This document shows, piece by piece, positions 1,326-15,758 of a DNA stretch of 17,427 nt. The position numbers and the translations under genes are program-made. The notes under the pieces are model-generated. The model was not told where the DNA came from and ran no database searches. It was given only the letters and a program-made list of their open reading frames with translations. This stretch comes from Erythrobacter sp. Lineage in GTDB: Bacteria > Pseudomonadota > Alphaproteobacteria > Sphingomonadales > Sphingomonadaceae. Each line of letters starts with the position of its first letter. The stretch's first letter is position 1. The stretch covers positions 1-17,427 of the forward strand of contig NZOF01000124.1 of assembly GCA_002695185.1 (NCBI GenBank). The letters are read 5' to 3'.

Positions 1326-1364
1326 GTCGTGGGGCGATAGTCAATTGACATTTGTGCAACGAAG

Positions 1365-3166: not shown

Positions 3167-3206
3167 TTCGCACCTCGAAACTAAATCTGATTTTCCTGTT
3201 GCACGG

Positions 3207-3238: not shown

Positions 3239-3273
3239 ACCAAAACCAGTATTAGTAAGAAAGGGCTGGGTTT

Positions 3274-3462
3274 ATGTTAGGTGATGAGCTTATCAAAGGG
3301 GCGAAGGGCCTTGCGAAGTATACAGGAAATGTCCTCACGCCTCGACAAGCATACCGGCTGGCTGAAGAGGGCAAAATTCCCGTCATCAAAGTTGGACGCT
3401 CACTCTACTTTCGGAAGAGTGAGGTGGATGCCGCATTCCGTTCGGACGCCGCCAATGGCTGA
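3274..3462 (+). CDS. Excisionase-like helix-turn-helix protein
   Basis: The 62-residue product has the small HTH_17/MerR-type winged helix used by phage excisionases and AlpA-like proteins. Residues 20-37 (VLTPRQAYRLAEEGKIPV) form the HTH and KVGRSLYFRKSEVDAAF (39-55) the wing and final helix. It is the first gene of the plus-strand early operon and faces the integrase operon across the repeat-bearing control region, the classical place for a Cox/Xis-type switch protein. An AAGGG ribosome-binding site precedes the ATG. It would bind DNA and could both repress integrase transcription and promote excision. The domain is clear; the excisionase role is inferred from position and from the shared repeat at the att arm. 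Confidence 0.75.
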   Translation: MLGDELIKGAKGLAKYTGNVLTPRQAYRLAEEGKIPVIKVGRSLYFRKSEVDAAFRSDAANG

Positions 3463-3655
3463 GCGCATCATCGAAATCACCTATGAGCCGTTCGGTGCCG
3501 GCTTTGACGTGAAAGTGATCCCGCCAGTGGAAGGCGAGGAATTGGACGCCGAATTTCCGACGCACAAGCGGGCACGCGGCTGGGCTTCGGGCCTTCGTAT
3601 GACGCGCGGGTGGCGGATCGTGGATCGCACCGGAGTGAGTGTCGATGTGAAGTGA
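3455..3655 (+). CDS. Hypothetical small phage protein (66 aa)
   Basis: I do not recognise this protein. It starts at an ATG at 3455 that overlaps the end of the preceding HTH gene by 8 bp, which points to translational coupling. A longer frame from 3281 exists but lies entirely inside the HTH gene and is not credible. The sequence has a beta-rich beginning (IIEITYEPFGAGFDVKVIPP) and then EFPTHKRARGWASGL, which loosely recalls DUF2188-type small proteins where an FPTK-x-EA element begins a helix. That similarity is weak. The gene is acidic-basic mixed, with no signal peptide or membrane segment. It is part of the early operon. Confidence 0.6.
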   Translation: MAERIIEITYEPFGAGFDVKVIPPVEGEELDAEFPTHKRARGWASGLRMTRGWRIVDRTGVSVDVK

Positions 3656-3722
3656 AGCAAGGCGGTCGAGGTGACGGCTGGAACCCGTCATCCCCGACCT
3701 TATCATCATGGAGGTACCAACA

Positions 3723-4184
3723 ATGATTGGACGCAATATAGCGCCTTCGCGGCGCGACGCAATCCGCGCGCTCGCCGCACTTTCAGTCAGCCTGCCGACT
3801 TTGGCAAATGCTACACCAGCCGAGACATGCCCCGCCGCCGTGAGCCAGCGTTGGAGTGCGCTGCTCTCCGCCTACAGAGAGGCACAGGCGGCTGAAGATG
3901 CCTACGATCAAGGCGTCATTGAACCGTTCTTCGTCGGCATCGACAAAAATGATCAGGCGGCATGGAGAAAGGCTGCGAAGCCCATTACCCGCGCCATGTG
4001 GGATCATCTGGAGTGCTTGGGCGACGAGCGCTTGGCAGCCGAAAAAGCGCTCATGGAATGCCCGTCGCCACATGCCTCTGCCTTTGCGCTCAAGTATGTG
4101 ATCGCACACGGCAATGGCCGGGAAGCTGATTGCTGGGATGATCTGCTGGAGGCGGAAGCCAAGCAGTTTGGCGGGAGGGCGTGA
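3723..4184 (+). CDS. Small protein with twin-arginine signal (first of two related genes)
   Basis: The 153-residue product begins with a Tat-like signal: Arg10-Arg11 in PSRRDAIRAL, a hydrophobic stretch to about residue 28, and a possible cleavage site after ANA (28-30). It would be exported folded to the periplasm. The mature part is helical, with SALLSAYREAQAAEDAYDQG and four Cys residues. The ATG at 3723 is preferred over one at 3708 because GGAGG (3710-3714) lies 8 nt upstream. The next gene also has a Tat signal and a matching helix (AL-[LI]-x-x-Y-x-x-x-x-AA-x-x-AY), so the two are probably distant paralogues. Function is unknown; export of early-operon products by a phage is uncommon. 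Confidence 0.65.
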   Translation: MIGRNIAPSRRDAIRALAALSVSLPTLANATPAETCPAAVSQRWSALLSAYREAQAAEDAYDQGVIEPFFVGIDKNDQAAWRKAAKPITRAMWDHLECLGDERLAAEKALMECPSPHASAFALKYVIAHGNGREADCWDDLLEAEAKQFGGRA

Positions 4185-4186
4185 CG

Positions 4187-4813
4187 ATGACGACACGTCG
4201 CAATTTCCTCGCTGGACTTGCCGCTGCCCCAGCCCTGGGAGCCCATCCCGCCTTTGCTGCTTCGTCCTTGGCGCACGGGTCTGCGCCCAGTGCGGCGATC
4301 TGCGCCCTTATCGCGGATTACGAGGTCAAAGAGGCTGCATGCGCCGCCTACTCTGCCAATATCTTCACGCCGGCCCGCGACGCATGGCTGGTTGATGTCG
4401 ATGCGATCCCCCATCGAACGACCAGCCTGACCTATCTTTATCATGGGGATGCCCGCCGCCTTTCAACCGATCGTAGTGACCAAGTGGCCGCGGCGAAAAC
4501 GGCCGCGGACATAGGTTCTGAAGGGCTTTATTCCCCTGACTATGCCGCGTGCTGCGCGGAACTGCGCGGGTTGGTGGCTGAACGCGAAGCGCAGCGGACA
4601 AGCCTGGACGAATTACATGGGATCGCTGCACTCGTCGCTGAAGACGAGAGACTTAGCGAGCTAGCCTGGCAAGCGCTTCAGAAGGTCGAGGCATTCCCAG
4701 CTGAAACCATTGCCGACTTGCTCGCCAAAATCGACTTCATCGAGGAAACGGGCGGCCAAATCGATGCTGAGATGTTGCGCGCCGATCTGCGCCACATCAA
4801 TGGGGAGGCATGA
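4187..4813 (+). CDS. Small protein with twin-arginine signal (second of two related genes)
   Basis: The 208-residue product starts TTRRNFLAGLAAAPALGAHP, a textbook Tat signal with Arg4-Arg5 and a likely cleavage after AFA near residue 24. The rest is helical and acidic, with a Cys cluster around SPDYAACCAEL and no catalytic motif I can name. The ATG at 4187 is chosen over an in-frame GTG at 4181 because GGGAGGG (4173-4179) is then 7-8 nt upstream. The gene follows the first Tat gene with only 2 bp between stop and start, so they are cotranscribed. The residues CALIADYEVKEAACAAYSAN align by eye with the helix of the previous protein. Function is unknown; a periplasmic role is inferred. Confidence 0.68.
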   Translation: MTTRRNFLAGLAAAPALGAHPAFAASSLAHGSAPSAAICALIADYEVKEAACAAYSANIFTPARDAWLVDVDAIPHRTTSLTYLYHGDARRLSTDRSDQVAAAKTAADIGSEGLYSPDYAACCAELRGLVAEREAQRTSLDELHGIAALVAEDERLSELAWQALQKVEAFPAETIADLLAKIDFIEETGGQIDAEMLRADLRHINGEA

Positions 4814-4816
4814 CCC

Positions 4817-5050
4817 ATGGTCGAAATTATTCCCGTTAGCCCTGCCGCTCTACGTTCGGCGGGGCACCGCGTTGACGTGCATGATTTCGTCCGCATCTGG
4901 GTTGTCGTGGTCTGGCGCGGACGGGCCGTTCTGTCGCAGCGGGATTTCCCGGAGCGCCGGGACGCGGAGGCTTATGCTCAGCAGTGGGCGCGCGAGCTGG
5001 AATGCAGCCTGATCCACCATCCGACATGTGCCGGGGGTGGCAGTCATTGA
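4817..5050 (+). CDS. Hypothetical small phage protein (77 aa)
   Basis: I do not recognise this protein. The ATG at 4817 is 3 bp after the preceding stop and has GGGGAGG just upstream, so it belongs to the same operon. The N-terminal half is hydrophobic and beta-like (FVRIWVVVVWRGRAVLSQ), followed by a helix (RRDAEAYAQQWARELECSL). This strand-strand-helix pattern is like many small phage proteins of unknown role. It is followed by 82 bp of non-coding DNA containing the first copy of the GTCGATTCAA box, so this may be the last gene of the first early transcript. Confidence 0.55.
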   Translation: MVEIIPVSPAALRSAGHRVDVHDFVRIWVVVVWRGRAVLSQRDFPERRDAEAYAQQWARELECSLIHHPTCAGGGSH

Positions 5051-5070
5051 GCGGCGTAGAAAAGCGTTCG

Positions 5071-5088
5071 CGTCGATTCAAACCCGTG
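5071..5088 (+). repeat. Box A: GTCGATTCAA box, left arm of an 18-bp inverted repeat
   Basis: CGTCGATTCAAACCCGTG is repeated exactly, inverted, at 5441-5458, so the two flank the alpA-like gene. The inner 10 bp (5072-5081) match the box found upstream of four other genes. This copy ends 51 nt before the alpA-like ATG, nearly the same distance as in boxes C, D and E. Unlike those three there is no minus-strand cargo gene beside it. It may be a promoter or operator element, or one end of a recombining segment. Confidence 0.7.
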
Positions 5089-5132
5089 AAAATCTGTTTA
5101 TTGGGAATGTCGCTTTTGAATGGAGCGACACA

Positions 5133-5333
5133 ATGACGGACCAGATATCACGGGTTTTGAGGGTGGCGGAGGTCTGCGCTCGCACGGGCCTCTGCCGCGT
5201 CACCATCCATCATCTTCGCAAGCGCGATGACTTTCCAGCGCCGATCCGGCTCAGCCCCGGCGCAATCGGATGGCTGGAGCATGAGATAGACGAATGGATC
5301 GCGCGGCGTGCTGCCGAGAGGCGGGTGGCATGA
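5133..5333 (+). CDS. alpA: AlpA-family phage transcriptional regulator
   Basis: The 66-residue product matches the small AlpA/MerR-like winged HTH proteins: VLRVAEVCARTGLCRVTIHH (8-27) forms the HTH, DFPAPIRLSPGAIGWLEHEI (33-52) the wing with its typical FP..I.L....GW..., and DEWIARR the final helix. In P4-like phages and satellites AlpA activates integrase or excision genes. The ATG at 5133 is chosen because GGAG (5122-5125) lies 7 nt upstream; a longer frame from 5028 overlaps the previous gene and has no ribosome-binding site. The gene is enclosed by an 18-bp inverted repeat. The family is clear; its targets are not. Confidence 0.85.
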   Translation: MTDQISRVLRVAEVCARTGLCRVTIHHLRKRDDFPAPIRLSPGAIGWLEHEIDEWIARRAAERRVA

Positions 5334-5476
5334 TGGCGTATCCGATGCCGGGAGGGCCGCCGAACGAAAACGGCCCCGGTCGCGAAACCGGAGCCGCCTG
5401 CGAAAAGGAGTGTGGACACCGCTCCTATGCCGCCATCCCCCACGGGTTTGAATCGACGGGAGGCAACCATGGGTGA
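5330..5476 (+). CDS. Possible small ORF (48 codons) between alpA-like and next gene
   Basis: An ATGATG start overlaps the alpA-like stop, and the frame runs to a stop inside the start of the gene at 5469. The product is Pro/Gly-rich at first (YPMPGGPPNENGPGRE), then has three Cys/His-containing stretches. I know no family like it. It spans a GC hairpin and box B, so the open frame may be accidental. Overlap with both neighbours is the only argument for a real gene. Confidence 0.3.
   Translation: MMAYPMPGGPPNENGPGRETGAACEKECGHRSYAAIPHGFESTGGNHG
5371..5396 (-). terminator. Possible minus-strand hairpin terminator
   Basis: CGGCCCCGGT (5371-5380) and ACCGGAGCCG (5387-5396) pair over 10 bp with one mismatch and a 6-nt loop. 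On the minus strand the stem is followed at once by TTTT, as in an intrinsic terminator; on the plus strand no T-tract follows. There is no minus-strand gene here to terminate, so it may serve antisense transcripts, or simply be a structured stretch. Confidence 0.3.
5441..5458 (-). repeat. Box B: GTCGATTCAA box, right arm of the 18-bp inverted repeat
   Basis: CACGGGTTTGAATCGACG is the exact reverse complement of 5071-5088. Of the five boxes this is the only one in minus orientation. It lies 10 nt before the ATG at 5469 and partly overlaps that gene's GGGAGG ribosome-binding site, so anything binding it could affect translation or transcription of the replication genes. Confidence 0.7.
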
Positions 5477-5723
5477 TGTGCTGAAGCATCCGGTCGTGCC
5501 GGTGCGGTCGTGGGTCGCTTTCCCTGTCGAGGACAGCGCCGATCCCTTTCAGGCGCGCTGGATAGCCCGCCTCAATGGGGCTTTCGCTGATGCCGCGGAC
5601 CTGGGCGATGCGCCTCCGGTGTCGTTTGAGGTGCTGCTCGATGTTTTCAGGCAGCCAGAGGTCCGCATGGGCCTGCCGATCGTGTTCCACCCGCATTGGT
5701 CAGTATTGGGAGGCGCGGCATGA
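5469..5723 (+). CDS. Hypothetical protein upstream of primase (84 aa)
   Basis: I do not recognise this protein. It starts at 5469 with GGGAGG upstream and its stop overlaps the primase start as ATGA, so it is coupled to replication. Residues RSWVAFPVEDSADPFQARWI and FEVLLDVFRQPEVRMG suggest a compact mixed fold with no membrane segment. A longer frame from 5412 exists but would read through box B and lacks a ribosome-binding site. Placement immediately before the primase suggests a replication accessory role, as inference only. Confidence 0.6.
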   Translation: MGDVLKHPVVPVRSWVAFPVEDSADPFQARWIARLNGAFADAADLGDAPPVSFEVLLDVFRQPEVRMGLPIVFHPHWSVLGGAA

Positions 5724-6631
5724 GCTTGCTCGATGTCATGGCGATCCGGTCGGCGCATCCGCTGCCCCGGATTGCCGCCGCCAGCGTGAAGCTGTTCAAG
5801 GCCGGCAACGAATTGAAGGGCTGCTGTCCCTTTCATGATGACAGCTCGCCGTCCTTTACGATCTTCGCCAATGGCGAGCGCTTCTACTGCTTCGGCTGCG
5901 GCGCGACCGGCGACGTGCTCGACTTCGTGCAGCGCGCGCACCATGTCGATATTCGGACGGCGGCTGAAATGCTTTGCGGTGGCAATTTGCCCTCGGTGGA
6001 CGTGGCGATGCCGCGCGAGATCGAGCCTGGCCCGGATCGCACCGACGAGGCGCTGGCGATCTGGCGCAACGCTGTGCCGGTGCAGGGGACGGAAGCGGAG
6101 AGCTATCTGCGCTTTCGTGGCATCCACATTCCCATTCCGGCAAGCATCCGGTTCGCCCGTCTCCGCTATGGCAAGCGCGGGCCTGAACATCCTTGCCTGA
6201 TTGCCTGTGTGGGATCGGTCGATAACAAGGTGGTCGGCATCCAGCGGACCTATCTTAATTCGGCCGGCACGGGAAAGGCAGGCGTCGCCAAGCCCAAGCT
6301 ATCGCTTGGTCGTGTCGCTGGCGGGGCCGTCCGGCTTGCCCCTGCCGCCGCCGAATTGGTCGTGTGCGAGGGGCTGGAGGATGGCCTGACGCTCATGCAG
6401 GAGCTTGGCCGGGCGGTGTGGGTGGCCGCTGGGGCTTCCATGCTGCCTAAGATGCAATTTCCTGTCGGGGTGCGCGCGGTGGCGATCGGCGGGGACGGTG
6501 ACGATGCTGGACGGAAAGCCGCTGCTGCTGCTGCCCGCGGCTTCGCAGATCGCGGACTGGCTGCGCGAACGTTCTTCCCGCTGGAGGGCTTCAAGGACTT
6601 CAATGACGAACTGCGGGGGGTGGCGCAATGA
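5720..6631 (+). CDS. DnaG-type primase with CHC2 zinc finger and Toprim domain
   Basis: The 303-residue product starts with a CHC2 zinc-binding domain: C36-x2-H39 (CCPFHDDSSPSF) and C57-x2-C60 (FYCFGCGATGD). A Toprim catalytic fold follows, with Glu217 in VVCEGLEDGLT and the D-x-D pair Asp259/Asp261 in GGDGDDAG that would bind catalytic metal. It would make RNA primers on the phage replication fork. It is shorter than bacterial DnaG (about 600 residues) because it lacks the helicase-binding C-terminus, which is usual for phage primases. The ATG at 5720 overlaps the previous stop, and its own stop overlaps the helicase start (ATGA). Pairing with the next gene gives a complete primase-helicase unit. 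Confidence 0.9.
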   Translation: MSLLDVMAIRSAHPLPRIAAASVKLFKAGNELKGCCPFHDDSSPSFTIFANGERFYCFGCGATGDVLDFVQRAHHVDIRTAAEMLCGGNLPSVDVAMPREIEPGPDRTDEALAIWRNAVPVQGTEAESYLRFRGIHIPIPASIRFARLRYGKRGPEHPCLIACVGSVDNKVVGIQRTYLNSAGTGKAGVAKPKLSLGRVAGGAVRLAPAAAELVVCEGLEDGLTLMQELGRAVWVAAGASMLPKMQFPVGVRAVAIGGDGDDAGRKAAAAAARGFADRGLAARTFFPLEGFKDFNDELRGVAQ

Positions 6632-7962
6632 AAGGCCCGTCATTGAAAGAGCGAGCAGACTCTGCTCCTCCCGTAACCCAGATAGAACCCGGCATCGAGC
6701 CGACAGAGCGTTTCATCGCGATGGAGTGGGCCCGGCTTAATTCCGTTAGGTGTCGGTATGACCATGGCATTGGCCGATGGTTTCAGTTCGATGACGTCCA
6801 TTGGAAAGAAGACAAGACTCGAGCGGTGTTTCATTCGATAGCCGAACTAGCTAACCGCATTGGCCGCGGTTCAAAGGCCACGGGGAAGGCAGGAACCGTG
6901 CGGGGGATCGAGGCATTCGCCCAGGCCGATCCTCGCGTGGCTGTCACACACGAAATCTGGGATGCCAATCCTATGCTCCTGGGGACGCCTGCCGGCACTG
7001 TCGATCTGAAAACTGGAAAGCTTCGGGTATCCAAAGCTGAGGAATACCTGACGCGGCAGGCGTCGGTGGCTCCTCGTCATGGACGGCCGGAGCTGTGGCT
7101 GCGCTTTCTGAATGAAGCAACTGGTGGCGACGCCGAACTCATCCGATTCTTGCAGCAGGTTCTAGGCTACGCGCTTACAGGCGATACCAGAGAGCACGCG
7201 CTGTTTTTCGTTTATGGTTCGGGCAAAAACGGCAAATCCGTGTTCCTCAACACAGCCGCCCGGATCATGGGTAACTATGCATCTACAGCGGCGATGGAGA
7301 CTTTTGCCGCGTCCCGAAGTGATCGCCACCCGACCGAGTTGGCGCGCCTCGACGGCGCTCGCTTGGTTTCGGCTTCAGAAACCGAAGAGGGCAGAGCATG
7401 GGCCGAGGCTCGGATCAAGCAACTCACTGGAGGCGATCCAATCGCTGCCCGGTTCATGCGGGGAGACTTCTTTGAATTTACCCCCAAGTTCAAGCTGATC
7501 ATAGTCGGGAATCACCAGCCCTCGCTGCACAACGTAGATCCGGCGACGCGACGGCGCTTCAACATTATCCCGTTTACCCACACGCCTGCGAACCCCGACC
7601 CTCTACTCGAACGGAAGTTAGAAGCCGAGCACGGCATGATTCTTAACTGGATGATCGAAGGTTGTCGGGATTGGCTTGCAAATGGCTTGACGAGGCCAAG
7701 TGCGGTGAGCGCCGCGACGGAAGACTATTTCGAGTCTCAGGACGTGCTAGGGCAGTGGATTGCTGAACGCTGCGTCACAGGCAAGAACGAATGGGAGCAA
7801 CCTACAATCCTATTCAGGGATTGGTCGGAGTATGCCCGCGCCAGCGGCGAAGATGCTGGGACGAACAAATCCTTCGGTAGCAAATTAGAAAAGAGGGGTT
7901 TCCGCGCTGGCCGCCGCCCAGGAGGCATCCGCTGCCGGCAAGGCATATCCTTGCAGCGTTGA
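6628..7962 (+). CDS. D5/P4-type SF3 replicative helicase
   Basis: The 444-residue product is a phage/plasmid primase, P4 family C-terminal type. A D5-N-like region (LLGTPAGTVDLKTGKLR, about 117-133) precedes an SF3 helicase core. Walker A is GSGKNGKS (197-204), the Walker B region RLVSASETEEG (245-255) carries the acidic residues, sensor 1 is LIIVGNHQP (290-298) with Asn295, and arginine-finger candidates are in ATRRRFNIIPF (306-316). It would form a hexameric ring and unwind the element's origin. The separate primase gene upstream explains the lack of a primase domain. It ends one base before a converging gene. No origin iterons were recognised close by. Confidence 0.9.
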   Translation: MKGPSLKERADSAPPVTQIEPGIEPTERFIAMEWARLNSVRCRYDHGIGRWFQFDDVHWKEDKTRAVFHSIAELANRIGRGSKATGKAGTVRGIEAFAQADPRVAVTHEIWDANPMLLGTPAGTVDLKTGKLRVSKAEEYLTRQASVAPRHGRPELWLRFLNEATGGDAELIRFLQQVLGYALTGDTREHALFFVYGSGKNGKSVFLNTAARIMGNYASTAAMETFAASRSDRHPTELARLDGARLVSASETEEGRAWAEARIKQLTGGDPIAARFMRGDFFEFTPKFKLIIVGNHQPSLHNVDPATRRRFNIIPFTHTPANPDPLLERKLEAEHGMILNWMIEGCRDWLANGLTRPSAVSAATEDYFESQDVLGQWIAERCVTGKNEWEQPTILFRDWSEYARASGEDAGTNKSFGSKLEKRGFRAGRRPGGIRCRQGISLQR

Positions 7963-7963
7963 T

Positions 7964-8371
7964 CTAGCCTGCTTCACGGATTTGCTGGTTCAGCGTGGTC
8001 CCGGCAAATTCATGATCGTCAGCTGAGATGAAGCGCCGCTCGAGCATCATATCTTGGAGCGCGAAGAAGAGCGCCCGTTTTTGCCTTCCGATGTGGCTTA
8101 AAGTGTCACGATAGGTATGTTCCCTGCCTGATGCCAAGTCCCCACCGCACAAGTTTACTAACAAGTTCAGCACAATTTCGAGGCATTGCTTGCCTTCGAC
8201 AACGCTCGCGTTTCTAACCCCTGTCGGGTTTTGAATGATAGCCCGCCGCGCCCTCAGCTTTAGGTCATCATATGTGGGGTTAGTTTTAAGCGCCGTTTGG
8301 TCGAGTGAATCTAGCGCAAATAAAACATCTCGAACGGCCTTCGTCCGGAACATCCAACGCATTATGCCCAT
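7964..8371 (-). CDS. Unknown minus-strand cargo gene (135 aa)
   Basis: I do not recognise this protein. The ATG at 8371 is chosen because GAGG lies 6 nt upstream (GAGGTGGGCG-ATG). A longer frame to a TTG at 8506 adds 45 His/Arg/Val-rich residues that do not look like protein. The product is helical, with LRARRAIIQN, CLEIVLNLLVNLCGGDL and RALFFALQDMM segments and a basic N-terminus. It lies opposite to all neighbours, ends 1 bp from the helicase stop, and is followed on its 5' side by box C. This is a typical moron position. A superinfection or defence role is possible but unsupported by any motif. Confidence 0.6.
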   Translation of the reverse strand: MGIMRWMFRTKAVRDVLFALDSLDQTALKTNPTYDDLKLRARRAIIQNPTGVRNASVVEGKQCLEIVLNLLVNLCGGDLASGREHTYRDTLSHIGRQKRALFFALQDMMLERRFISADDHEFAGTTLNQQIREAG

Positions 8372-8557
8372 CGCCCACCTCACCTGATCTGTGACGTGTG
8401 ACACGTTGTGACGGATTTTTCCATTATGACGCACACGCGTGCGCGCATGAAGCGCAACCGGGAAATGCGTCGGATGCGACACACGCGTCACACCTAGTCG
8501 ATTCAAGGAGATGGCCTGATCAAGGTATCCAGCTTGCTACCAACGAAGGAGCAAGCG
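8372..8557. promoter_or_regulatory. Divergent intergenic region with GTGAC repeats and box C
   Basis: This region separates the minus-strand gene ending upstream and the TerS-like gene. It holds three GTGAC direct repeats (8391-8395, 8398-8402, 8408-8412) and an inverted GTCAC (8487-8491). Two ACGCGT cores lie in ACACGCGT contexts, one in the palindrome CACGCGTG. A minus-strand promoter of the form TTCATG, 17 bp, CATAAT can be drawn for the gene starting at 8371. These marks suggest an operator-rich region, but the regulator is unknown. Confidence 0.4.
8497..8506 (+). repeat. Box C: GTCGATTCAA
   Basis: An exact copy of the 10-bp box, 51 nt before the GTG start of the TerS-like gene. It follows the minus-strand cargo gene and its regulatory region. 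Boxes A, C, D and E are all in plus orientation and at similar distance from a plus-strand start. Confidence 0.7.
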
Positions 8558-8848
8558 GTGACGTTCAAGAAAGGGCAGAGCGGAAATCCTGCGGGACGAT
8601 CGCCTACGGTGATGCCGGATGGTCGGACCCTGACGGACGTTGCGCGGGAGCATACGCTGGAGGCCGTCAATTGTCTGGTGGCGATGGTGGCGGATGAGAA
8701 AGCGCCTCATGCTGCCAAGGTGTCAGCGGCGACGGCTCTGCTGGATCGTGGCTGGGGGCGTCCTCGTCAGGACCTGGGCGTCGATATCAAGTCCGATGCG
8801 TCGGTGGCGAAGATGCTGGAAGAGGCGCGGCGTCGGGCTGGGGGTTGA
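8558..8848 (+). CDS. DUF5681 protein, probable small-terminase-like packaging factor
   Basis: The 96-residue product starts with FKKGQSGNPAGRSP, the hallmark of DUF5681 proteins that commonly sit near phage terminases and act like a small terminase subunit or DNA-recognition factor. A helical part follows (LEAVNCLVAMVADEK, AAKVSAATALLDRGWGRP), ending in a predicted helix. The GTG at 8558 is taken because GAAGGAG is positioned 7-8 nt upstream; an in-frame TTG at 8534 lacks this. In this element the large terminase is 1.9 kb downstream, separated by three inserted genes, which is unusual for a TerS-TerL pair. The family call is good; the packaging role is from context. Confidence 0.75.
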   Translation: MTFKKGQSGNPAGRSPTVMPDGRTLTDVAREHTLEAVNCLVAMVADEKAPHAAKVSAATALLDRGWGRPRQDLGVDIKSDASVAKMLEEARRRAGG

Positions 8849-8901
8849 GCTATCGCTCCAGCTCGCTCATCATGCAACGCGCGCGTTCTTGGGGCAGAGA
8901 A

Positions 8902-9261
8902 ATGAAGCTCAAGGTCTTGATCGTATTGGCCGCTCTTATGGGTTCATCGAACCTGCCCGCCAGCGCATCGGACACTCCTCGCTTTGACGGCAAAGCCCTA
9001 TTGCAGCAGTGCGACAGCGCGGAGCCGCTAATCGCTATGTCTTGCTGGTCCTTCATCACCGGAGTTTTAGAAGGCTCGCTTGCCACGTCCGCCGCGCGAG
9101 AAGAGAAACCGATTATCTGTCTGCCCGAAGTCTACAGTCAGCGCATGATCCGAGACAGTGTGCTGGCTTGGATTCGGCTCAACGAACAATATCAACCATT
9201 GAGTTCCGGTCCCCTCGTTACACAGGCGATGAGAAGACAATTTCCTTGCAACTCCGACTAG
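8902..9261 (+). CDS. Rap1a/Tai-like secreted immunity-type protein
   Basis: The 119-residue product (from ATG 8902) has a Sec signal peptide (MKLKVLIVLAALMGSSNLPA, cleavage near ASA 20-22). Four Cys residues follow at 37, 48, 73 and 116 (CDSAEP, MSCWSFITGV, IICLPE, RQFPC). This four-Cys pattern with CLP and a C-terminal FPC is that of Rap1a/Tai proteins, periplasmic immunity proteins to type VI amidase effectors; phages also encode members. A frame starting at 8845 overlaps the previous gene but has no ribosome-binding site and would hide the signal peptide. A periplasmic role in protecting the cell wall or excluding other phages is inferred. Confidence 0.65.
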   Translation: MKLKVLIVLAALMGSSNLPASASDTPRFDGKALLQQCDSAEPLIAMSCWSFITGVLEGSLATSAAREEKPIICLPEVYSQRMIRDSVLAWIRLNEQYQPLSSGPLVTQAMRRQFPCNSD

Positions 9262-9331
9262 CTTGACCCTTCCCATTTCATATAAAATGGCGTAACGTTC
9301 GTAACGCTGATTTGTATGGAAGGGCAAAGCG
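9262..9331 (+). promoter_or_regulatory. Promoter/operator region of the serine recombinase
   Basis: The segment is AT-richer than its surroundings. It contains a TTGACC (9263-9268) and a TATAAA (9281-9286), though their 12-bp spacing is too short for a normal sigma-70 promoter. CCATTT and AAATGG form an imperfectly spaced inverted repeat around the TATA. The direct repeat CGTAACG-TT-CGTAACG (9291-9306, 9-bp period) follows. The repeats could be an operator or a recombinase binding site for the gene that starts at 9332. Confidence 0.45.
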
Positions 9332-10003
9332 ATGAAAGCCGTCGCCTATTACCGGGTATCCACCGCCGCGCAGGGCCGCTCTGGTCTGGGGCTAGAGGCT
9401 CAGCGGGAGGCCGTGGAGAGCCTATGCCGATCGAGGGGGTGGGAGCTTACCGCGCCGCCTTTCACCGAGATTGAGAGTGGCAAGCGCTCCGATCGCCCTG
9501 AGTTGGCGATGGCTCTGCACCGCGCGAAGGTGACGGGCGCAACGCTGGTCGTGGCGAAGCTGGATCGCTTGTCGCGCAATGTCGCGTTCCTCGCGGCGCT
9601 TCAGGACAGCGGCGTCAAGTTCGTGGCGGCTGACATGCCTGAGGCGAACGAGTTGACGGTGCATATCATGGCAGCCGTGGCCCAGGCTGAGCGCAAAGCC
9701 ATCTCAAAACGAACTCAGGAAGCCCTACAGGCGGCAAAGGCGCGTGGGCAGCGATTGGGTAATCCAAATGGCGCGGCGGCTCTCAGGCGGGCCGGGAAGG
9801 GCAATGCTGCCAGTGTAGACGCCATCAGGAGCGAAGCGGCTGCGAGGGCCGATCAGATGCGTCCTGTGATTGAGGATATGCAGGCCCGCGGGATCAGGTC
9901 GCTAGGCGCGTTGGCGAAGGCGTTGAATGATGGCGGGTTCGTCACGGCGCGGGGAGGGCGTTGGCACGCGTCGTCGGTGCGCAATCTGGTGGTGCGGCTT
10001 TAA
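9332..10003 (+). CDS. Small serine recombinase (resolvase/invertase family)
   Basis: The 223-residue product has the resolvase catalytic domain: nucleophile Ser10 and Arg8 in YYRVSTAAQ, LVVAKLDRLSRN (72-83) with the conserved D-R-L-S-R, and the E-helix residues ERKAISKRTQEAL (120-132). A C-terminal DNA-binding region (IEDMQARGIRSLGALAKALNDGG) resembles the usual HTH. Such enzymes resolve, invert or integrate short DNA pieces. A full tyrosine integrase already serves the element, so this is a second recombinase. It ends tail-to-tail with the HEPN gene, sharing TTAA, and begins behind a repeat-bearing AT-rich region. What it acts on is not visible; box-flanked segments are candidates. Confidence 0.92.
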   Translation: MKAVAYYRVSTAAQGRSGLGLEAQREAVESLCRSRGWELTAPPFTEIESGKRSDRPELAMALHRAKVTGATLVVAKLDRLSRNVAFLAALQDSGVKFVAADMPEANELTVHIMAAVAQAERKAISKRTQEALQAAKARGQRLGNPNGAAALRRAGKGNAASVDAIRSEAAARADQMRPVIEDMQARGIRSLGALAKALNDGGFVTARGGRWHASSVRNLVVRL

Positions 10004-10689
10004 GCGGTTGCTGCTCCGCGCCTAATAGTTCGCCATAGCTCTTCGGCGCTGAGCCGGGCATTTTCGTCCAGCATGTCCCAGAAAATGCTAGCCCCGGATA
10101 AAGCTAGTTCGCTGGCCTCAACGAGCAGCGTCATTTCTTCAAGCATCGACGTGATATGGCCAAAAATCGGGCGCTCGCGCTCGATGTCGAATACGAGGTT
10201 ATGCGCTAGATACTGGTCGCGAAAGTTTCGCATGAGTCTGATCCGGTTTGGCTCCTCGGCATCAAGCCTCAGCAGGGCAGCGTCAATTTGATCTAACGCA
10301 CCTAGCGCAGCTCTCGCATTCTCGTCAGCGTTCCAACCATCCTCAAACCATGCCGATGCCCTGCGCGCCACTTCGTCCCGGACGCCGTGCAGTTGCGCGA
10401 GTTCGGCAAGCACCTTGAACGAAGCCCGATCGCTTCTTAGTGCGCCACCGCGACCGGAAGCATCGAAGGCACGCGTTACGATCATGATAGTTTCGTACAG
10501 TGCCGAATTAGCCAGCCTGTTGATGGCGCTGGCCCCTTCATTGCCGATCAGTGCTTGATCGCGAAGCGGGTTGTTCTGGTCATTATAAGACTGCCAGATG
10601 ATCCAGAGCGGCCGTGAATTGACTACGCAGCGAGAATAGAGGGTGCGACTGAGATTAGCCATCCGGTCAACAATTTCGGCGGGCGTCAT
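10000..10689 (-). CDS. HEPN/AbiU2-like protein, candidate abortive-infection cargo gene
   Basis: The 229-residue all-helical product resembles the AbiU2-type HEPN family. An N-terminal helical part (RPLWIIWQSYND, NEGASAINRLANSALYETIM, IVTRAFDAS) precedes a segment with RNFRDQYLAHN, where Arg157-x5-His163 fits the R-x4-6-H RNase signature of HEPN proteins. Such proteins are ribonucleases used as toxins or in abortive infection (AbiU in Lactococcus). The ATG at 10689 has AGGGA upstream. The gene is opposite to all neighbours, its stop overlaps the serine-recombinase stop, and box D lies 13 nt beyond its start. This is the same layout as the other two minus-strand cargo genes. The fold is moderately sure; a defence function is inferred. 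Confidence 0.6.
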   Translation of the reverse strand: MTPAEIVDRMANLSRTLYSRCVVNSRPLWIIWQSYNDQNNPLRDQALIGNEGASAINRLANSALYETIMIVTRAFDASGRGGALRSDRASFKVLAELAQLHGVRDEVARRASAWFEDGWNADENARAALGALDQIDAALLRLDAEEPNRIRLMRNFRDQYLAHNLVFDIERERPIFGHITSMLEEMTLLVEASELALSGASIFWDMLDENARLSAEELWRTIRRGAATA

Positions 10690-10702
10690 TTGGTCTTCCC
10701 TG

Positions 10703-10712
10703 GTCGATTCAA
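10703..10712 (+). repeat. Box D: GTCGATTCAA
   Basis: An exact copy of the 10-bp box, 47 nt before the GTG start of the large terminase and 13 nt upstream of the HEPN gene's start on the other strand. It sits in the 70-bp gap between two divergent genes, so any factor bound here could affect both. Confidence 0.7.
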
Positions 10713-10759
10713 CCGCCAGCCTATCACGCTACCCTCGCTCCACAAGGAGCGTGACGACA

Positions 10760-12298
10760 GTGACACCAGATGAAATTCGCCGCGAGGTCATAGCAGACCT
10801 CGCCCGCTTCACCCATGACCCATTGGGCTTCGTGCTGTGGGCCTTTCCATGGGGCGTGGAGGGCACGTCGCTCGCGAAGGAGGATGGTCCCGACCAATGG
10901 CAGCGCGACCAGCTCAGCGCGATCGGTGCGAGCCTTCAGGCCGATCCGTTCAAGGTCATACAGGACGCGACGGCATCGGGTCACGGCATCGGCAAATCCG
11001 CTGAGGTATCCTGGCTGATCCTGTGGGCCATCATGACGCGGGAAGATACGCGCGGCGTCGTCACGGCCAACACGGATACGCAGCTTCGAACCAAGACCTG
11101 GCCGGAATTGTCGAAATGGTATGCGCTCCTGCAATTCGACGTGCTGCGGGAGATGTTCAAGCTGGAGGCGACCAGTATTCATGCCGCTGATCCCGGCCAT
11201 GAGCGGACATGGCGCATCGACGCAATTCCCTGGAGCGAACGCAACACCGAAGCCTTCGCGGGCCTCCACAACGCCGGCAAGCGCGTCATCCTGCTATTCG
11301 ATGAGGCGTCTGCGATCATCGATCCCATTTGGGATACGGCGTCGGGCGGCCTGACGGACGCGGACACGGAAATCCTGTGGCTGGCCTATGGCAACCCGAC
11401 GCGAAACACCGGGCGCTTCAAGGAGACGATCGCCGGGCGCTTTCGCAGCCAGTGGACGCACCGGCAGGTTGACGGCCGGGACGTGAAGCGGACCAACAAG
11501 GCGCTGCTCCAGACTTGGATCGACACCTATGGCGAGGACAGCGATTTCGTGCGCGTCCGTGTAAAGGGACAGTTTCCGCGTGCCGGTTCGACGCAGTTCA
11601 TTTCGTCGGAAGTCGTGCAACAGGCGCGCAAACGCGAAGCGGGTGAGGTGCTGCGCTCCGATCCGCTGATCTTTGGCGTCGATATCGCGCGCTTTGGTGA
11701 TGATCATTCCACCCTGGCAATCCGGCGCGGACGCGATGCCCGATCGATCGAATGGAAACGTTGGCACGGTGCCGACACGATGCAGGTGGCCGGCGACATA
11801 GCGCTGGAAGCCCGACGCTGGCACCCTGAGGCGATCTTCGTGGACGTCGGGGCCATGGGCGCTGGCGTGATTGATCGTCTGCGCCAGCTTCAGGTGCAGA
11901 ACGTATTTGAGGTCAACTTCGGCGGCAAAGGCCGCGAGGTGGACTGGGCTACCGGCGTTCGCGTTAAGACCACGAACAAGCGCGCCGAAATCTGGACGAA
12001 GATGCGTGCCTGGCTGGCGACGGCGGCGATCCCCGATGAGGATGATCTGGAAGCCGATCTGACCGGACCAGAATATGGCTATGGTCCTGATCAGGTGTCG
12101 ATCCAGCTCGAGCGCAAGAAGGACATGAAGGCGCGCGGCCTACCGTCACCTGATGATGCCGACGCACTGGCCTGCACGTTCGCGGAGATGGTCATGCCGG
12201 TTGATGTGCCTGGCTATCTTAATCCCGATCACTTCATGCCGACGCGGGATTATGACCGCTACAAGGAGCTGGACGCGCTCGATGCCCGCTATCACTGA
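10760..12298 (+). CDS. terL: Phage terminase large subunit (ATPase/nuclease)
   Basis: The 512-residue product has both terminase domains. The ATPase has Walker A GHGIGKS (74-80), Walker B VILLFDE (176-182) and the coupling segment LAYGNPTRNTGRF. The RNase-H-like nuclease has FGVDIARFGDD (305-315, Asp308), IFVDVGAMG (359-367, Asp362) and DDADALACT (465-473). It would translocate DNA into a prohead and cut concatemers. The start is taken as GTG 10760 with AAGGAG 10 nt upstream; GTG 10751 is in frame but too close to the ribosome-binding site. A longer frame to 10643 overlaps the HEPN gene. The gene looks intact although no capsid or portal gene follows, which is the main oddity of the element. 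Confidence 0.94.
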   Translation: MTPDEIRREVIADLARFTHDPLGFVLWAFPWGVEGTSLAKEDGPDQWQRDQLSAIGASLQADPFKVIQDATASGHGIGKSAEVSWLILWAIMTREDTRGVVTANTDTQLRTKTWPELSKWYALLQFDVLREMFKLEATSIHAADPGHERTWRIDAIPWSERNTEAFAGLHNAGKRVILLFDEASAIIDPIWDTASGGLTDADTEILWLAYGNPTRNTGRFKETIAGRFRSQWTHRQVDGRDVKRTNKALLQTWIDTYGEDSDFVRVRVKGQFPRAGSTQFISSEVVQQARKREAGEVLRSDPLIFGVDIARFGDDHSTLAIRRGRDARSIEWKRWHGADTMQVAGDIALEARRWHPEAIFVDVGAMGAGVIDRLRQLQVQNVFEVNFGGKGREVDWATGVRVKTTNKRAEIWTKMRAWLATAAIPDEDDLEADLTGPEYGYGPDQVSIQLERKKDMKARGLPSPDDADALACTFAEMVMPVDVPGYLNPDHFMPTRDYDRYKELDALDARYH

Positions 12299-12425
12299 TC
12301 GCGCGGTCTGTGGTGCCAAGCGGCGGAACGGGGAGCCTTGCCGCAAGCCGCCGATGGCGAACGGGCGGTGTCATCTGCATGGCGGAAGGACGCCAAAGCG
12401 CAGTCTAAAGATCCAAAGGGAATGA
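12282..12425 (+). CDS. HGGxTP-type zinc-ribbon mini-protein
   Basis: The 47-residue product has the C-x9-C-x9-C-x-H pattern (Cys10, Cys20, Cys30, His32) of small phage proteins with an HGGxTP motif, here HGGRTP at residues 32-39 or so. Members lie directly after terminase genes and probably bind one zinc ion; their function is unknown. The ATG at 12282 overlaps the end of terL, which is normal for the family. Family members usually run on for a Thr/Gly/Pro-rich tail, and this one ends after KRSLKIQRE, so the C-terminus may have been cut by the rearrangement in the 12.4-12.66 kb region. Confidence 0.65.
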   Translation: MPAITDRAVCGAKRRNGEPCRKPPMANGRCHLHGGRTPKRSLKIQRE

Positions 12426-12560
12426 AGCCTTCAGCATCATTGCTTCATTGTCAGATTCGATCCGATAGGCAATCCCGTCGCCATCTGGTCCGCGTCGGAA
12501 GGCGGATTTAGGCAAGGCTGGGAAGCCCTCGCTGATCGCTTTGTCCTCGGCCGCTGTCAT
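12405..12560 (-). CDS. Small unknown minus-strand ORF (51 aa)
   Basis: The product (from ATG 12560) is MTAAEDKAISEGFPALPKSA and a further 31 residues with IAYRIESDNEAMML near the end. I know no family like it. Its stop overlaps the 3' end of the HGGxTP gene by 21 bp and box E lies 39 bp beyond its start, the same convergent layout as the two larger minus-strand genes. There is no clear ribosome-binding site for the ATG; an in-frame GTG at 12590 and a TTG at 12608 are alternatives. It may be a real cargo gene or a short frame left over from a deletion. Confidence 0.42.
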   Translation of the reverse strand: MTAAEDKAISEGFPALPKSAFRRGPDGDGIAYRIESDNEAMMLKASFPLDL

Positions 12561-12598
12561 GCGCCACAATTTCCCAGCAATCCTTCTCACGTTGCCCC

Positions 12599-12608
12599 GT
12601 CGATTCAA
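12599..12608 (+). repeat. Box E: GTCGATTCAA
   Basis: An exact copy of the 10-bp box, 56 nt before the GTG start of the coiled-coil gene at 12665. It lies at the place where portal and capsid genes would be expected to begin, so it also marks the probable boundary of missing structural genes. Confidence 0.7.
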
Positions 12609-12664
12609 GCTTGTCCCCCTGAACCCTATCGTCGCCTCCGACGATCCACAAAAGGAGTTTGGAC

Positions 12665-13327
12665 GTGGCGGACAAAAAGGAATTTTCGGCGGCGGATTAT
12701 GCCGCGCAGCGCGCTGCGCTCGATGAGCAAATCCGGGTTGCGGAGGACGATCATCACCGCGCCGGCTATCAGCAGGTGCTGGGCGAGGCGACCCAGGACG
12801 ATGTCGATAAGGCGCTTGTCACGCTTGATGCGCTGAAGTCCAAGCGCCGCACTCTGGAGGCGGCCTGGCAGGAGGCCCAGCGACGCGTTGCCGCTGCCAA
12901 TGAGGCGCTGGCGAAGGCCGATCAGGAAAAATCCATCGCCGAATTCAACGGCCTTCTGGCTGCCCGCGTCGCCTCGGCCGCCAAGATGGAGGAAGCCGCC
13001 AAGGTGCTGGGCGCGATGGTGACCGAATACCATGATGCCGGGGCGCGGCTGAAGGCAATCGCCGGCAGCCTTTTCAAAACCTACAGGCAAGAGCGCAGCC
13101 GGGACCATCTGTCACTGATCCACGCCAACCTGTCCGACACGCGCGACATAAACCTGCTCGCGGCGTTGCTCTATCGTGAGGGTTGCGACCTTTCGCATAC
13201 CCGCCCTGGCACCGCGCGGTTCGAATATGAACGGATCGGCGGCATCGCGCCGCTGGTTGAACAAATCAACGAGAAGCTTCGGCATAGGGTGCTGAACCTC
13301 TGTCCCGATCTGGAGGATGACGCATGA
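12665..13327 (+). CDS. Coiled-coil phage protein of unknown function (220 aa)
   Basis: The product begins ADKKEFSAADYAAQRAALDE and is strongly helical and charged over residues 15-115, with heptad-like spacing (LKSKRRTLEAAWQEAQRRVAA and AALAKADQEKS-like segments), so a coiled coil is likely. The C-terminal part (NLLAALLYREGCDLSHTRPG) is more globular. No catalytic motif is seen. It is the first gene of the structural-like block, starting at GTG 12665 with AAAGGAG 7 nt upstream and box E further up. A scaffold or virion accessory role is conceivable from position but cannot be supported by motif. The ATGA overlap with the next gene shows one operon. Confidence 0.6.
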   Translation: MADKKEFSAADYAAQRAALDEQIRVAEDDHHRAGYQQVLGEATQDDVDKALVTLDALKSKRRTLEAAWQEAQRRVAAANEALAKADQEKSIAEFNGLLAARVASAAKMEEAAKVLGAMVTEYHDAGARLKAIAGSLFKTYRQERSRDHLSLIHANLSDTRDINLLAALLYREGCDLSHTRPGTARFEYERIGGIAPLVEQINEKLRHRVLNLCPDLEDDA

Positions 13328-13593
13328 GCCTCCAGCGTGCCCTTGTCGTGGTGCAGACGCCCTTTCCCGACAGCCGGTTGATCGCACGGGGGGAGGTGAT
13401 CGAATGGGACGGCCTGGACTGGAAGATGGAGCCAACGGACGCGGTTGAATGGGAGGCCTGGAACGCCAGCCATCGCGATGATGAGCGCGTCGCCGCCAAT
13501 TTGCGCCGCGCGGGCAAGCTGGAGGACATGTCGCCGTTGGAGGATCTGCACGTGGCTAGCGGAACGGCGGCAAGCGTTAAAGGGGATCTGTAA
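13324..13593 (+). CDS. Hypothetical phage protein (89 aa)
   Basis: I do not recognise this protein. It starts MSLQRALVVVQTPFPDSRLI, then has a Trp/Glu-rich part (IEWDGLDWKMEPTDAVEWEA) and a helical tail. The start overlaps the previous stop (ATGA) and its own stop TAA overlaps the following ATG (TAATG). Being locked between the coiled-coil gene and the internal-virion-like gene, it is probably translated with them. No signal peptide or membrane segment is present. Confidence 0.55.
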   Translation: MSLQRALVVVQTPFPDSRLIARGEVIEWDGLDWKMEPTDAVEWEAWNASHRDDERVAANLRRAGKLEDMSPLEDLHVASGTAASVKGDL

Positions 13594-14138
13594 TGTGTGC
13601 GCCACCCGTCATTGCCGCCGCCGCTGCCGCTGTAACTGCCGTTGGCACGGTATATGGCGGGCTGGCCGCGCAAGCCCAAGGGAAATATGAGCAGCGCGTA
13701 GCCGAGCAAAACGCCCGACTGGCAGGCGAGGCGGCGCGGCGCGAACAGGACAATACTCGTGATGCGCTTCTATCCCACTACCGTCAAGTCGCCCAGCTTG
13801 AGGGCCAGCAGCGCGTCGCCATGGCGGCGGGTGGGCTGGACGTGAATTTCGGGAATGCCGCCGATCTCACCGCCGACACGCATATGCTCGCGCAGGAGGA
13901 TGCTCGGCGCATCTATGAACAAGGTGCGGAGAATGTCCGCGGCTATAATATCGAGGGCATGAATTACCAGTCGCAGGGACGGGCTGCTCGGTCCCGGGGC
14001 AATGCGGCTTTCGTCGGAAGTTTGTTCAGTGCAGCGGGAACGGCGCTGGGCGGTGCAAGCCAGTATTCTTCCCTGAAAGTGAAAATGGGCGGATCTGGCA
14101 GGAACGCGTATGGCATTTCGGGCGGCGAAATCTACTGA
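13593..14138 (+). CDS. T7 gp14-like internal virion protein (ejection protein)
   Basis: The 181-residue product has the layout of T7 gp14-type internal core proteins. An N-terminal hydrophobic, Ala/Val-rich segment (about 5-30, PPVIAAAAAAVTAVGTVYGG) would insert into the outer membrane during DNA ejection. A charged helical part follows (KYEQRVAEQNARLAGEAARR), then a central stretch ending DLTADTHMLAQEDARRIYEQ. A Ser/Gly-rich tail (SAAGTALGGASQYSSLKV) closes the protein. In podoviruses it is ejected with gp15 and gp16-like proteins to form a transenvelope conduit. The next genes fit this set. I assign it from composition and neighbours without a search, so it is likely but not proved. Confidence 0.65.
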   Translation: MCAPPVIAAAAAAVTAVGTVYGGLAAQAQGKYEQRVAEQNARLAGEAARREQDNTRDALLSHYRQVAQLEGQQRVAMAAGGLDVNFGNAADLTADTHMLAQEDARRIYEQGAENVRGYNIEGMNYQSQGRAARSRGNAAFVGSLFSAAGTALGGASQYSSLKVKMGGSGRNAYGISGGEIY

Positions 14139-14362
14139 TGCTTCGTATCCAGGTCTACGGTCGGCATATGCACCGGGAGTCCGCTGCGCAGCCGGAAAGC
14201 GCCATGGCGTGGGTCAAGGCGTGGGAGCGTCAGATGGTCGCACGAGACCGAGCGCAAGAGTCGGCTGAGGCAGGGATGGTTCCGCCTATCTCATCTGTCA
14301 GGCTTCCCCTGTTGAGTGGCATCCTCATGCAGGAACAAGAAAGGCGCGATCGTGGCGACTGA
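14138..14362 (+). CDS. Hypothetical protein between internal virion genes (74 aa)
   Basis: The ATG at 14138 overlaps the previous stop (TGATG). The product, rich in Arg, Glu and Gln, reads MLRIQVYGRHMHRESAAQPE and later MVARDRAQESAEAG, with no recognised motif. Its last codons overlap the start of the following large gene by 11 bp, so it is tightly packed in the operon. It may be a small virion or assembly protein. Confidence 0.5.
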   Translation: MLRIQVYGRHMHRESAAQPESAMAWVKAWERQMVARDRAQESAEAGMVPPISSVRLPLLSGILMQEQERRDRGD

Positions 14363-15758
14363 TCCGTTCCAATATCTGGACCAAATGCGCAGCCGGGACA
14401 GCGAGCCCGAGACCGTCGATCCCTTCGCCGCCGATTTGCAGCGCCAGCGCGATGAGGAAATGGCGTTCCGCATCAAAGTCGCCAAGCCCGACGAAGCGGC
14501 GCGGGCTGGAGCCATCGCAAAGGCGCGGGGCCTTCCCGCCGCCGTGGTGGAAAGCAACCTGCCCGCGTTTGAAATGGAGGCGCGGGCCGCGCGGGCGAAA
14601 GCTGCGGCGCAGGACTATCCCGCCATCGGGCGCTGGGCAGCGTCGCAAAGTAACGTAGCGGTCGCGGCTGACGATTTCGACGGCCTGCTAAAGATCGCCA
14701 AGGCGCTTGATCCTGTTGATTGGGCACGAAGCGGGAGCAATGAGCGGTTTTGGAAAAAGGCGCTAGCTGGGCAAGGTAGTGTTTCGGCCTCTCAGCAGCC
14801 GGACCCGTCGCTGATCAGTGTTGTGAAGGGCTTGGTCACTGATGTCATTCAAGGCGGGGCAAAAGCACGTGAAGGTCTGCGCGCCGCGTTTTCTGACTGG
14901 ACGGATTTTCTGGTGCCGAGAGCAGCGCCAGGCGCACCCTCGTTGGGAAACTTTGGGGCTGCCAATGCAATCCAGCGTTACCAGCGCGCAGATGCACGCG
15001 CTGCGGCCAGTCGGCCCGCTTTCAAGTCCAGAACGGCGCAAGGGCTCTATAGCGGTGCGTCGTCATTGGCGCAGATGGTGCCTGGCATTGCCGTGTCCGT
15101 CGCGACCGGTAATCCGCTGCCGGGGCTCGTGGCGGCTGGCGGCCAGACTGGTTTTGACGCCTATGGAAAATATCGGGCCCGTGGCGGCTCGCCCGCGGAA
15201 GCGTCGATCGGCGGGGCGCTAGAGGGTGGCGTCGAAGTAGCAACCGAACTGCTTCCCATGGGCTTCCTCGTCGAGCGGTTGGGCAAGGTGGGGGCGGGGC
15301 GGTTCCTCTCTGGCTATCTTGGTCGGGAGATGGCCACCGAACAGGCAGCTACGCTAGCGCAGGACGCGGTGGACACGGCCATCGCCAATCCCGGCAAGAC
15401 GTGGGGACAATATCTGGCTGAGCGCCCTGACGCCTTTTACCAGACTGCGCTAGCTACGTTTGTCGCGTCTGGCGCGCTTACCGGCGTCGCTCACGTCGCC
15501 AACAAGATGCAGCAGCAGGCCGATGCCATCTTGGAGGCACAGGCAGGCGCTGCCGTTCTGGACAAGCTGGGCAGGGCGGTTTCTTCCTCTAAGGCCGCCA
15601 CGCGCGCCCCTGAAGCCGTTGCCGAACTGGTGCAGCATTTGGGGGAGGAGCGTGGCGTTGAGCGCATCTATGTGCCCGGTGAGTCCGTGCAGGCGTATCT
15701 CGCTGCCGACGACGATCGCGAATATTTTGGAGGTGCACAGTGTCCTTGGCAAATCTGA
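14352..15758 (+). CDS. Large ejection/internal-virion-like protein, probably truncated at the C-terminus
   Basis: The 468-residue product starts at GTG 14352 (ATDPFQYLDQMRS). Its N-terminal third is charged and helical, followed by a hydrophobic Gly/Ala-rich region at about 233-273 (VPGIAVSVATGNPLPG, LVAAGGQTGFDAYGKY) and a second at 286-311. This composition is typical of the N-terminal part of gp16-like or large polyvalent ejection proteins, which usually run well beyond 1000 residues. After VERIYVPGESVQAYLAADDD the reading frame goes through the ribosome-binding site of the next gene and stops at 15758, ending in residues GAQCPWQI that look out of place. I infer a deletion with its joint near 15722-15730. 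What remains could still act in ejection only if the cut protein folds. Confidence 0.55.
   Translation: MATDPFQYLDQMRSRDSEPETVDPFAADLQRQRDEEMAFRIKVAKPDEAARAGAIAKARGLPAAVVESNLPAFEMEARAARAKAAAQDYPAIGRWAASQSNVAVAADDFDGLLKIAKALDPVDWARSGSNERFWKKALAGQGSVSASQQPDPSLISVVKGLVTDVIQGGAKAREGLRAAFSDWTDFLVPRAAPGAPSLGNFGAANAIQRYQRADARAAASRPAFKSRTAQGLYSGASSLAQMVPGIAVSVATGNPLPGLVAAGGQTGFDAYGKYRARGGSPAEASIGGALEGGVEVATELLPMGFLVERLGKVGAGRFLSGYLGREMATEQAATLAQDAVDTAIANPGKTWGQYLAERPDAFYQTALATFVASGALTGVAHVANKMQQQADAILEAQAGAAVLDKLGRAVSSSKAATRAPEAVAELVQHLGEERGVERIYVPGESVQAYLAADDDREYFGGAQCPWQI

Follow-up and report, generated by a model that had tools for sequence, protein, structure and literature searches.

According to the available text of the papers cited, the helper protein Ogr of phage P2 trans-activates the satellite P4 (PMC7552001, PMC8628076), which has an AlpA homologue, Vis (PMC6092414), and induction of the helper induces alpA in phage-inducible chromosomal islands (PICIs) of E. 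coli (PMC6092414, PMC11773190). Here, a 10-bp repeat, GTCGATTCAA (the box), was analysed in a 17,427-nt stretch of Erythrobacter sp. DNA (contig NZOF01000124.1, positions 1 to 17,427; the window), an IMG/VR virus record that holds an integrated element of about 16 kb, probably a phage satellite as judged from its gene content. The box is very likely the -35-position element of a late promoter class of Rauchvirus-like temperate Sphingobium podoviruses, of which the satellite bears copies before its main functional units, and these would fire in the late phase of its helper. In P4, as far as the available text describes it, replication and late genes answer the late activator of the helper, and the same logic is proposed for this element. 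The putative helper, however, is a podovirus and not P2-like, the satellite has its own TerL and virion-protein operon, unlike P4, and the box lies at -35, whereas Ogr sites lie near -55.

Gram-negative PICIs such as EcCICFT073 and EcCIMP1 have an integrase, AlpA and primase, as does the window element, but their int and alpA are co-oriented and their genomes mostly unidirectional (PMC10111431, available text), whereas int is on the minus and alpA on the plus strand of the window, which also has five dispersed helper-type boxes and its own TerL. Of the P4-like set, integrase and AlpA are present, and Ogr/Delta, Psu and epsilon had no Pfam match in 20 satellite proteins; sid, which the available text of PMC8628076 describes as detected by a custom profile, lay outside this Pfam comparison. 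A literature search on Sphingobium satellites and satellite late promoters, mostly leaving subscription papers uncovered, gave nothing on this system among the matches listed.

Exact search confirmed all five copies of the box at the positions and on the strands given by the original prediction, which was made from the letters of the window, and a TerL scan of genome contigs found related satellites in S. naphthae (L007, TerL 99% identical to that of the window), Sphingobium sp. AS12 (L008, 92%) and S. xenophagum (L009, 89%). The copies are as follows.

5072-5081, plus strand: box 1, before alpA, g5469, primase and helicase; -10-like TA at 5099-5100; in the same place in L007, L008 and L009
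5448-5457, minus strand: box 2, facing a short putative RNA unit; TA at 5426-5427
8497-8506, plus strand: box 3, before the terS-like gene; -10-like TA at 8526-8527
10703-10712, plus strand: box 4, before terL; -10-like TA at 10730-10731; one mismatch in L007
12599-12608, plus strand: box 5, before genes 12665 to 16423; -10-like TA at 12627-12628

The chance expectation of about 0.03 copies in the original prediction was right, with a mean of 0.036 in 1000 dinucleotide-preserving shuffles of the window (maximum 2, five copies reached in 0/1000). The box is the canonical 10-mer of highest count in the window, the next two having four copies each and being GC-richer. An extra one-mismatch copy within terL, at 11515 on the minus strand, is probably due to chance (shuffles expect 1.19 matches at one mismatch or fewer). 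The predicted distances of 51, 51, 47 and 56 nt from plus-strand copies to a start hold for the alpA ATG at 5133, the terS-like GTG at 8558, the terL GTG at 10760 and the GTG at 12665. That all copies are intergenic stands given a sensible choice of starts, and fails for two mechanical open reading frames (ORFs), 7964-8506 on the minus strand, whose TTG start would fall within the box at 8497, and 5412-5723 on the plus strand, which would span the box at 5448.

Relatives lacking the box at equal boundaries, which the original prediction had named as counter-evidence, were not encountered among the three satellites: L008 and L009 have all five boxes as exact copies, with boundaries and orientations unchanged, and L007 keeps four exact boxes and a terL copy that differs by one base (TTCGATTCAA), while the flanks have diverged in two of the three. 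The placement at module boundaries, with adjoining sequences that differ between satellites, would also suit a recombination linker, that is, a mark of module-exchange points kept through recombining, but ten bases make a short substrate for homologous exchange, the fixed spacing to TA and the gene-ward orientation would be left unexplained, and the minus copy goes together with a short unit whose end resembles a terminator, so this reading is already disfavoured and we give it very little weight. Further away, a Novosphingobium rosa prophage (L010, TerL 54% identical to that of the window) has no exact box but carries GCGATTCAAGCC three times; at the first of these sites a gene begins about 50 nt downstream and TATC lies 18 nt past the CGATTCAA core. 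Distant primase relatives (L080-L089) were box-free in nine of ten cases, with one box in L081. A gapped-pattern match in viral contigs (L011) was unrelated and rejected as chance.

The same box recurs in podovirus prophages. The 4.5-Mb S. xenophagum genome has 11 exact boxes, none of them outside two elements: the satellite holds five, and a podovirus prophage on a second contig holds the other six on a single strand. By PHROGs, the late module of this prophage encodes a head-tail adaptor, protease, major head protein and tail proteins, and comparison with the BPP-1 map placed phrog_332, 458, 212, 394 and 376 in a BPP-1-like order of portal, protease, capsid and tail. By portal, its nearest relatives among the 25 of 175 records listed (34-41% identity) are Cobetia phage Carin1, Sodalis phiSG1 and Bordetella BPP-1. 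The box-bearing prophages have the portal (36%) and late gene order in common with Rauchvirus (BPP-1), which showed no CGATTCAA in the 13.6-kb stretch examined. Four more Sphingobium genomes hold related prophages with one-strand clusters of 7, 5, 7 and 5 boxes, and IMG/VR records retrieved by portal have 3-7 boxes each, always on a single strand (7/7); two of these records overlap with the prophages of the five genomes, L090 being that of S. xenophagum and L095 appearing to be that of G432. The CGATTCAA core is kept at comparable late boundaries in the more distant phages G126, G143 and G012 and in the N. rosa prophage, and the S. xenophagum prophage also holds a one-mismatch variant, GTCGATTCAC. 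Related podoviruses G410, G436, G443 and G470 have no exact box, and no equivalent repeat was found in them, with a single CGATTCAA in G443, without TA at the usual place.

Satellite and prophage proteins are related as well: the gp14-like protein of the satellite is 52-71% identical to its counterparts in five prophages, its 480-aa LPD22 protein aligns to the N-terminal part of their internal protein of about 2,020-2,230 aa (up to 86% over 120 residues), and its TerL is 58-59% identical to that of prophages G418 and G435, whereas identity to the TerL of the other three is about 28% across some 250 residues. The LPD22 protein (14316-15758) has about one quarter of the length of its phage counterparts and may be a cut-down ejection protein fitted to satellite particles.

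A family-wide scan for the box with TAYC at the promoter-like spacing matched 27 of 397 genomes, with more than one match only in G003, and a genus scan matched 13 of 94. The plain box search, run on all 13 of these genomes and one non-matching genome, returned three satellite hosts, four genomes with prophage clusters and six with scattered copies only.

For the geometry of the sites, the four satellites and ten phage stretches supplied 70 exact sites, which were reduced to 41 non-redundant ones (less than 80% identity over 40 nt downstream). TA begins +18 to +20 past the box in 34 of these 41 (satellite 13/14, phage 21/27), with the T and A maxima at +19 and +20 and A at +20 in 30/41 sites (binomial P 1e-11); at other offsets from +2 to +57, TA reached no more than 7, save in overlapping windows centred at +18 and +20. 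Because TA lies 18-20 nt downstream, the box would occupy the -35 position of a promoter, spanning about -40 to -31 and standing in for the -35 element, while the -10 is weak. No consensus sigma-70 site (TTGACA, 16-18 nt, TATAAT) occurred in 4900-5760, a region that takes in boxes 1 and 2 but not the others.

Identical spacing would also result from a repressor site lying over the -35. Mycobacteriophage stoperators are multiple, asymmetric, oriented short repeats between genes, and like them and the start-associated sequences the box is short, oriented and intergenic; its multiplicity, asymmetry and orientation would fit an operator of this type, at which a repressor bound to scattered boxes would keep the genes of satellite and phage off in lysogens. 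We nevertheless regard this as improbable, since the box, in contrast to stoperators, has a fixed distance to a -10-like TA, which suits a -35 element, phage boxes lie on one strand and, where genes were examined, at late operons, and no Pfam repressor family was found among the 20 satellite proteins, AlpA and a small HTH_17 protein aside. Of the three options raised by the original prediction, a shared promoter element for regulator, packaging and structural genes appears best supported, and an operator or processing signal would not be needed, although an operator overlapping the promoter would be compatible with the same sites. What goes beyond the original prediction is the probable satellite nature of the element, the box as a late-gene element of a family of larger phages, its -35 placement relative to a conserved downstream TA and the putative RNA unit at the minus copy.

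Leader hairpins are clear for satellite alpA and terL and not general, with a folding z below -2 in 10/41 sites and a mean of -0.9; the terS leader of L008 has a z of 0.4. The alpA, terS-like and terL leaders of the window (5108-5130, 8532-8556 and 10737-10750) have hairpins with the ribosome-binding site inside them or at their edge, and the alpA leader stem is preserved by compensating changes among the satellites. A match to Rfam ar35 over the alpA leader was sub-threshold (23.8 bits against a gathering cut-off of 45) and was taken as chance.

No late activator was recognised among the satellite proteins, and the factor that reads the box is for this reason probably encoded by the helper. 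Reading frames of the S. xenophagum prophage outside the late module were surveyed by phmmer, and the best candidate, at a little under even chance, is a winged-helix protein of 149-161 aa whose gene lies just before the helper terminase genes (TerS). It is the most widely common of the tested frames, being found in eight of nine other phages, the ninth, G012, having a more distant one. Its profile matched 13 of 14 podovirus stretches bearing the box or the CGATTCAA core, the sole miss, L094, being a 5.7-kb fragment with only the last 35 aa of the protein; because G126, G143 and G012 were found using the winged-helix protein itself, the unbiased count, excluding them, is 10/11. It matched none of the four related podoviruses without an exact box and none of five satellite elements. 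An AlphaFold model (mean pLDDT 78.1, pTM 0.58) shows a winged helix with helices at 13-27, 35-42 and 49-59 and strands at 63-68 and 71-76. A wider survey with the profile matched 23 of 397 family genomes, and downstream stretches were examined for 16 of the 22 besides G003. CGATTCAA occurred in 6/16, with seven copies in G126 and one each in G143, G012, G290, G314 and G140, and a portal homologue in 3/15 (G126, G143 and G012; G288 left out); the single copies in G290, G314 and G140 accompany no such late module and were taken as chance. Nearly as widespread as the winged-helix protein, and to that extent a competitor, is a 349-aa HTH/DnaA_N-like protein (7/9, G435 being cut before that gene), which probably serves replication.

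The main alternative to the winged-helix reader is the host factor GcrA, which together with sigma-70 on methylated DNA would read the box, so that the elements exploit host cell-cycle control. At about -37 to -33 the box contains GATTC, which fits the CcrM site GANTC and is kept in all exact boxes, in TTCGATTCAA of L007, in the variant of the S. xenophagum prophage and in the core of the other phages, and PF07750 is present in 6/6 host genomes searched. The GcrA consensus in the available text of PMC7987155 is YGAKTCK or YGAKTCG, however, and CGATTCA misses its last position and the opposite strand, TGAATCG, its fourth; moreover, eight to ten bases are constant, far beyond GANTC, all exact copies of G003 lie in mobile elements, no GcrA match was found in the window or in G003 contig C107, and a host factor alone would presumably leave late genes of the lysogen unsilenced. 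Reading by the host is accordingly judged unlikely. A phage-borne GcrA was rejected, as every PF07750 match is more than 40 kb away from the boxes of satellites and prophages, the closest one, on G003 C138, at about 44 kb.

Several observations weigh against a helper late promoter read by a helper factor. The terL gene of the S. xenophagum prophage has no box at one mismatch or fewer, and some phage boxes sit within the upstream reading frame, such as the one at 23239 of S. xenophagum in ORF 23171-23485. Satellite hosts G001 and G002 have no second box cluster, and co-residence is thus seen in one strain only. TA is missing at +18 to +20 in 7/41 sites, namely the minus copy of the window, four phage portal-protease sites and two phage sites that lead into the small gene preceding the portal; the portal-protease site, which falls within a small ORF, may be a weak promoter or none. 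As to the reader, the N-terminal (DNA-binding) domain of the winged-helix protein has diverged in G435 despite an identical box, and G061 has the protein and a 63% identical TerL with a different late module and no CGATTCAA. With these two points and three of its 13 positives pre-selected, the winged-helix protein is not claimed as the proven reader.

In all four satellites the minus box leads into a short unit that closes with a strong hairpin and TTTT.

5367-5422, minus strand: putative RNA of about 56 nt (5' end inferred), with a terminator-like hairpin at its end, antisense to the region downstream of alpA

The 56-nt folds have energies of -26.5 to -30.9 kcal/mol in the window, L007, L008 and L009, and the terminator scan gave one terminator-like site in the window, at 5390-5371, with 0.6 expected in shuffles of that region. 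The distance from box 2 to TA is 20 nt in the window, an outlier, and 18 in L008. Because a G-U pair of the stem would be a mismatch if read on the other strand, transcription from the minus strand is likelier. The unit is antisense to the stretch between alpA and the next gene, and cis-antisense pairing alone would be certain, provided that the RNA exists.

The RNA could further act in trans, as a regulator pairing with ribosome-binding sites of box-led mRNAs: its segment GTCCACACTCCTT is invariant in the four satellites, in contrast to the variable hairpin loop, the AAGGAGT-TGGAC leader at gene 12665 is complementary to the conserved GTCCACACTCC of the RNA and in the window fits the complement at 14/15 bases, and the terL leader of L009 ranks fourteenth among its duplexes. 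By duplex energy, however, the site at 12665 comes no higher than eighth in L008 (own locus of the RNA counted) and falls outside the 14 best in the window and L009, so the anti-Shine-Dalgarno complementarity may be generic. With no excess over background in the duplex ranking, trans-pairing with ribosome-binding sites was set aside as unsupported, and such a regulator seems doubtful at best.

The remaining features of the element are as follows.

644-704: left end, a partial tRNA-Gln copy, 89% direct repeat with 16910-16970
1365-2564, minus strand: tyrosine integrase (Pfam scan)
5133-5333, plus strand: alpA (PF05930, Pfam E 1.9e-14)
5696-6631, plus strand: primase (CHC2 zinc finger, Toprim_3; Pfam)
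6628-7962, plus strand: D5_N / DUF5906 helicase (Pfam)
8558-8848, plus strand: terS-like gene, so called from position and DUF5681 (E 2e-06), not a named terminase family; phrog_15261, of unknown function
10760-12298, plus strand: terL (Terminase_6C, below its cut-off; phrog_2, E 2.6e-37)
12665-13327, plus strand: 220-aa protein, first gene past box 5, no family match
13593-14138, plus strand: gp14-like internal virion protein (domain and PHROG matches, prophage homologues)
14316-15758, plus strand: 480-aa LPD22 protein, true start possibly GTG 14352
15740-16423, plus strand: 227-aa satellite protein, 70% identical over 225 aa to one in a second AS12 element
16919-16992, minus strand: right end, intact tRNA-Gln (ctg)

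The element also has a resolvase gene and a second small HTH_17 protein besides AlpA (Pfam, 20 proteins). No Pfam portal, capsid or tail match was found among the 20 window proteins scanned, and it is called a satellite on this ground. Megablast of 4900-13400 against a phage collection gave no match, and six pattern matches to the 12665 protein in viral contigs were all unrelated by tblastn. Cargo between boxes 3 and 4, Rap1a-like and HEPN/AbiU2-like proteins (8902-9261 and 10000-10689), may serve phage defence.

The second AS12 element (G002:C35, about 320001-346000; L167 and L168, reverse strand) has, behind a single box, a gene for a gp14-like protein; it also encodes a gp697-like protein, a short LPD22 protein (61%) and a relative of the 227-aa satellite protein (70%), and the TerL, AlpA and primase of the window were not found in this 26-kb stretch. 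The S. xenophagum prophage encodes at L014:5102-5338 a protein of 78 aa that matches phrog_1761, has counterparts in three other prophages at 76-91% identity and, in our view, resembles Acb2 anti-CBASS proteins, and at L014:5520-6257 an N6/N4 DNA methylase, with relatives in several box phages but not all (none found in G432).

Because satellite and helper carry the same promoter-like box, the satellite is suggested to switch on only with an active helper. When the helper enters its late phase, a box-reading late factor would turn on the helper late operons, and the same factor would turn on alpA, primase and helicase of the satellite for replication, its terS-like gene and terL for packaging, its virion-protein operon and the short antisense RNA beside alpA. 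What the sequences themselves show is the common box, its kept positions and orientation, the promoter-like spacing and the kinship of satellite and phages; transcription, dependence on the helper, the reader and the function of the RNA are inferred from these. That the reader is a so far undescribed family of winged-helix activators acting at the -35 of podovirus late promoters, with the whole cycle of the satellite (alpA and replication, own terminase, short ejection proteins, antisense RNA) under that signal in a P4/P2-like circuit made of unrelated parts, is a more tentative proposal, which we hold to be possible rather than probable.

Waking of satellites by a helper is known for few systems, and for the induction of PICI alpA the helper signal is not named in the available text of PMC6092414 and PMC11773190; the sequence described here suggests one. 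A single short sequence would link satellite and helper, and it predicts that the helper belongs to a specific prophage family, one member of which resides in the same strain. The box makes this trigger testable by reporter, and it marks a type of satellite with its own TerL and a cut-down podovirus internal virion protein.

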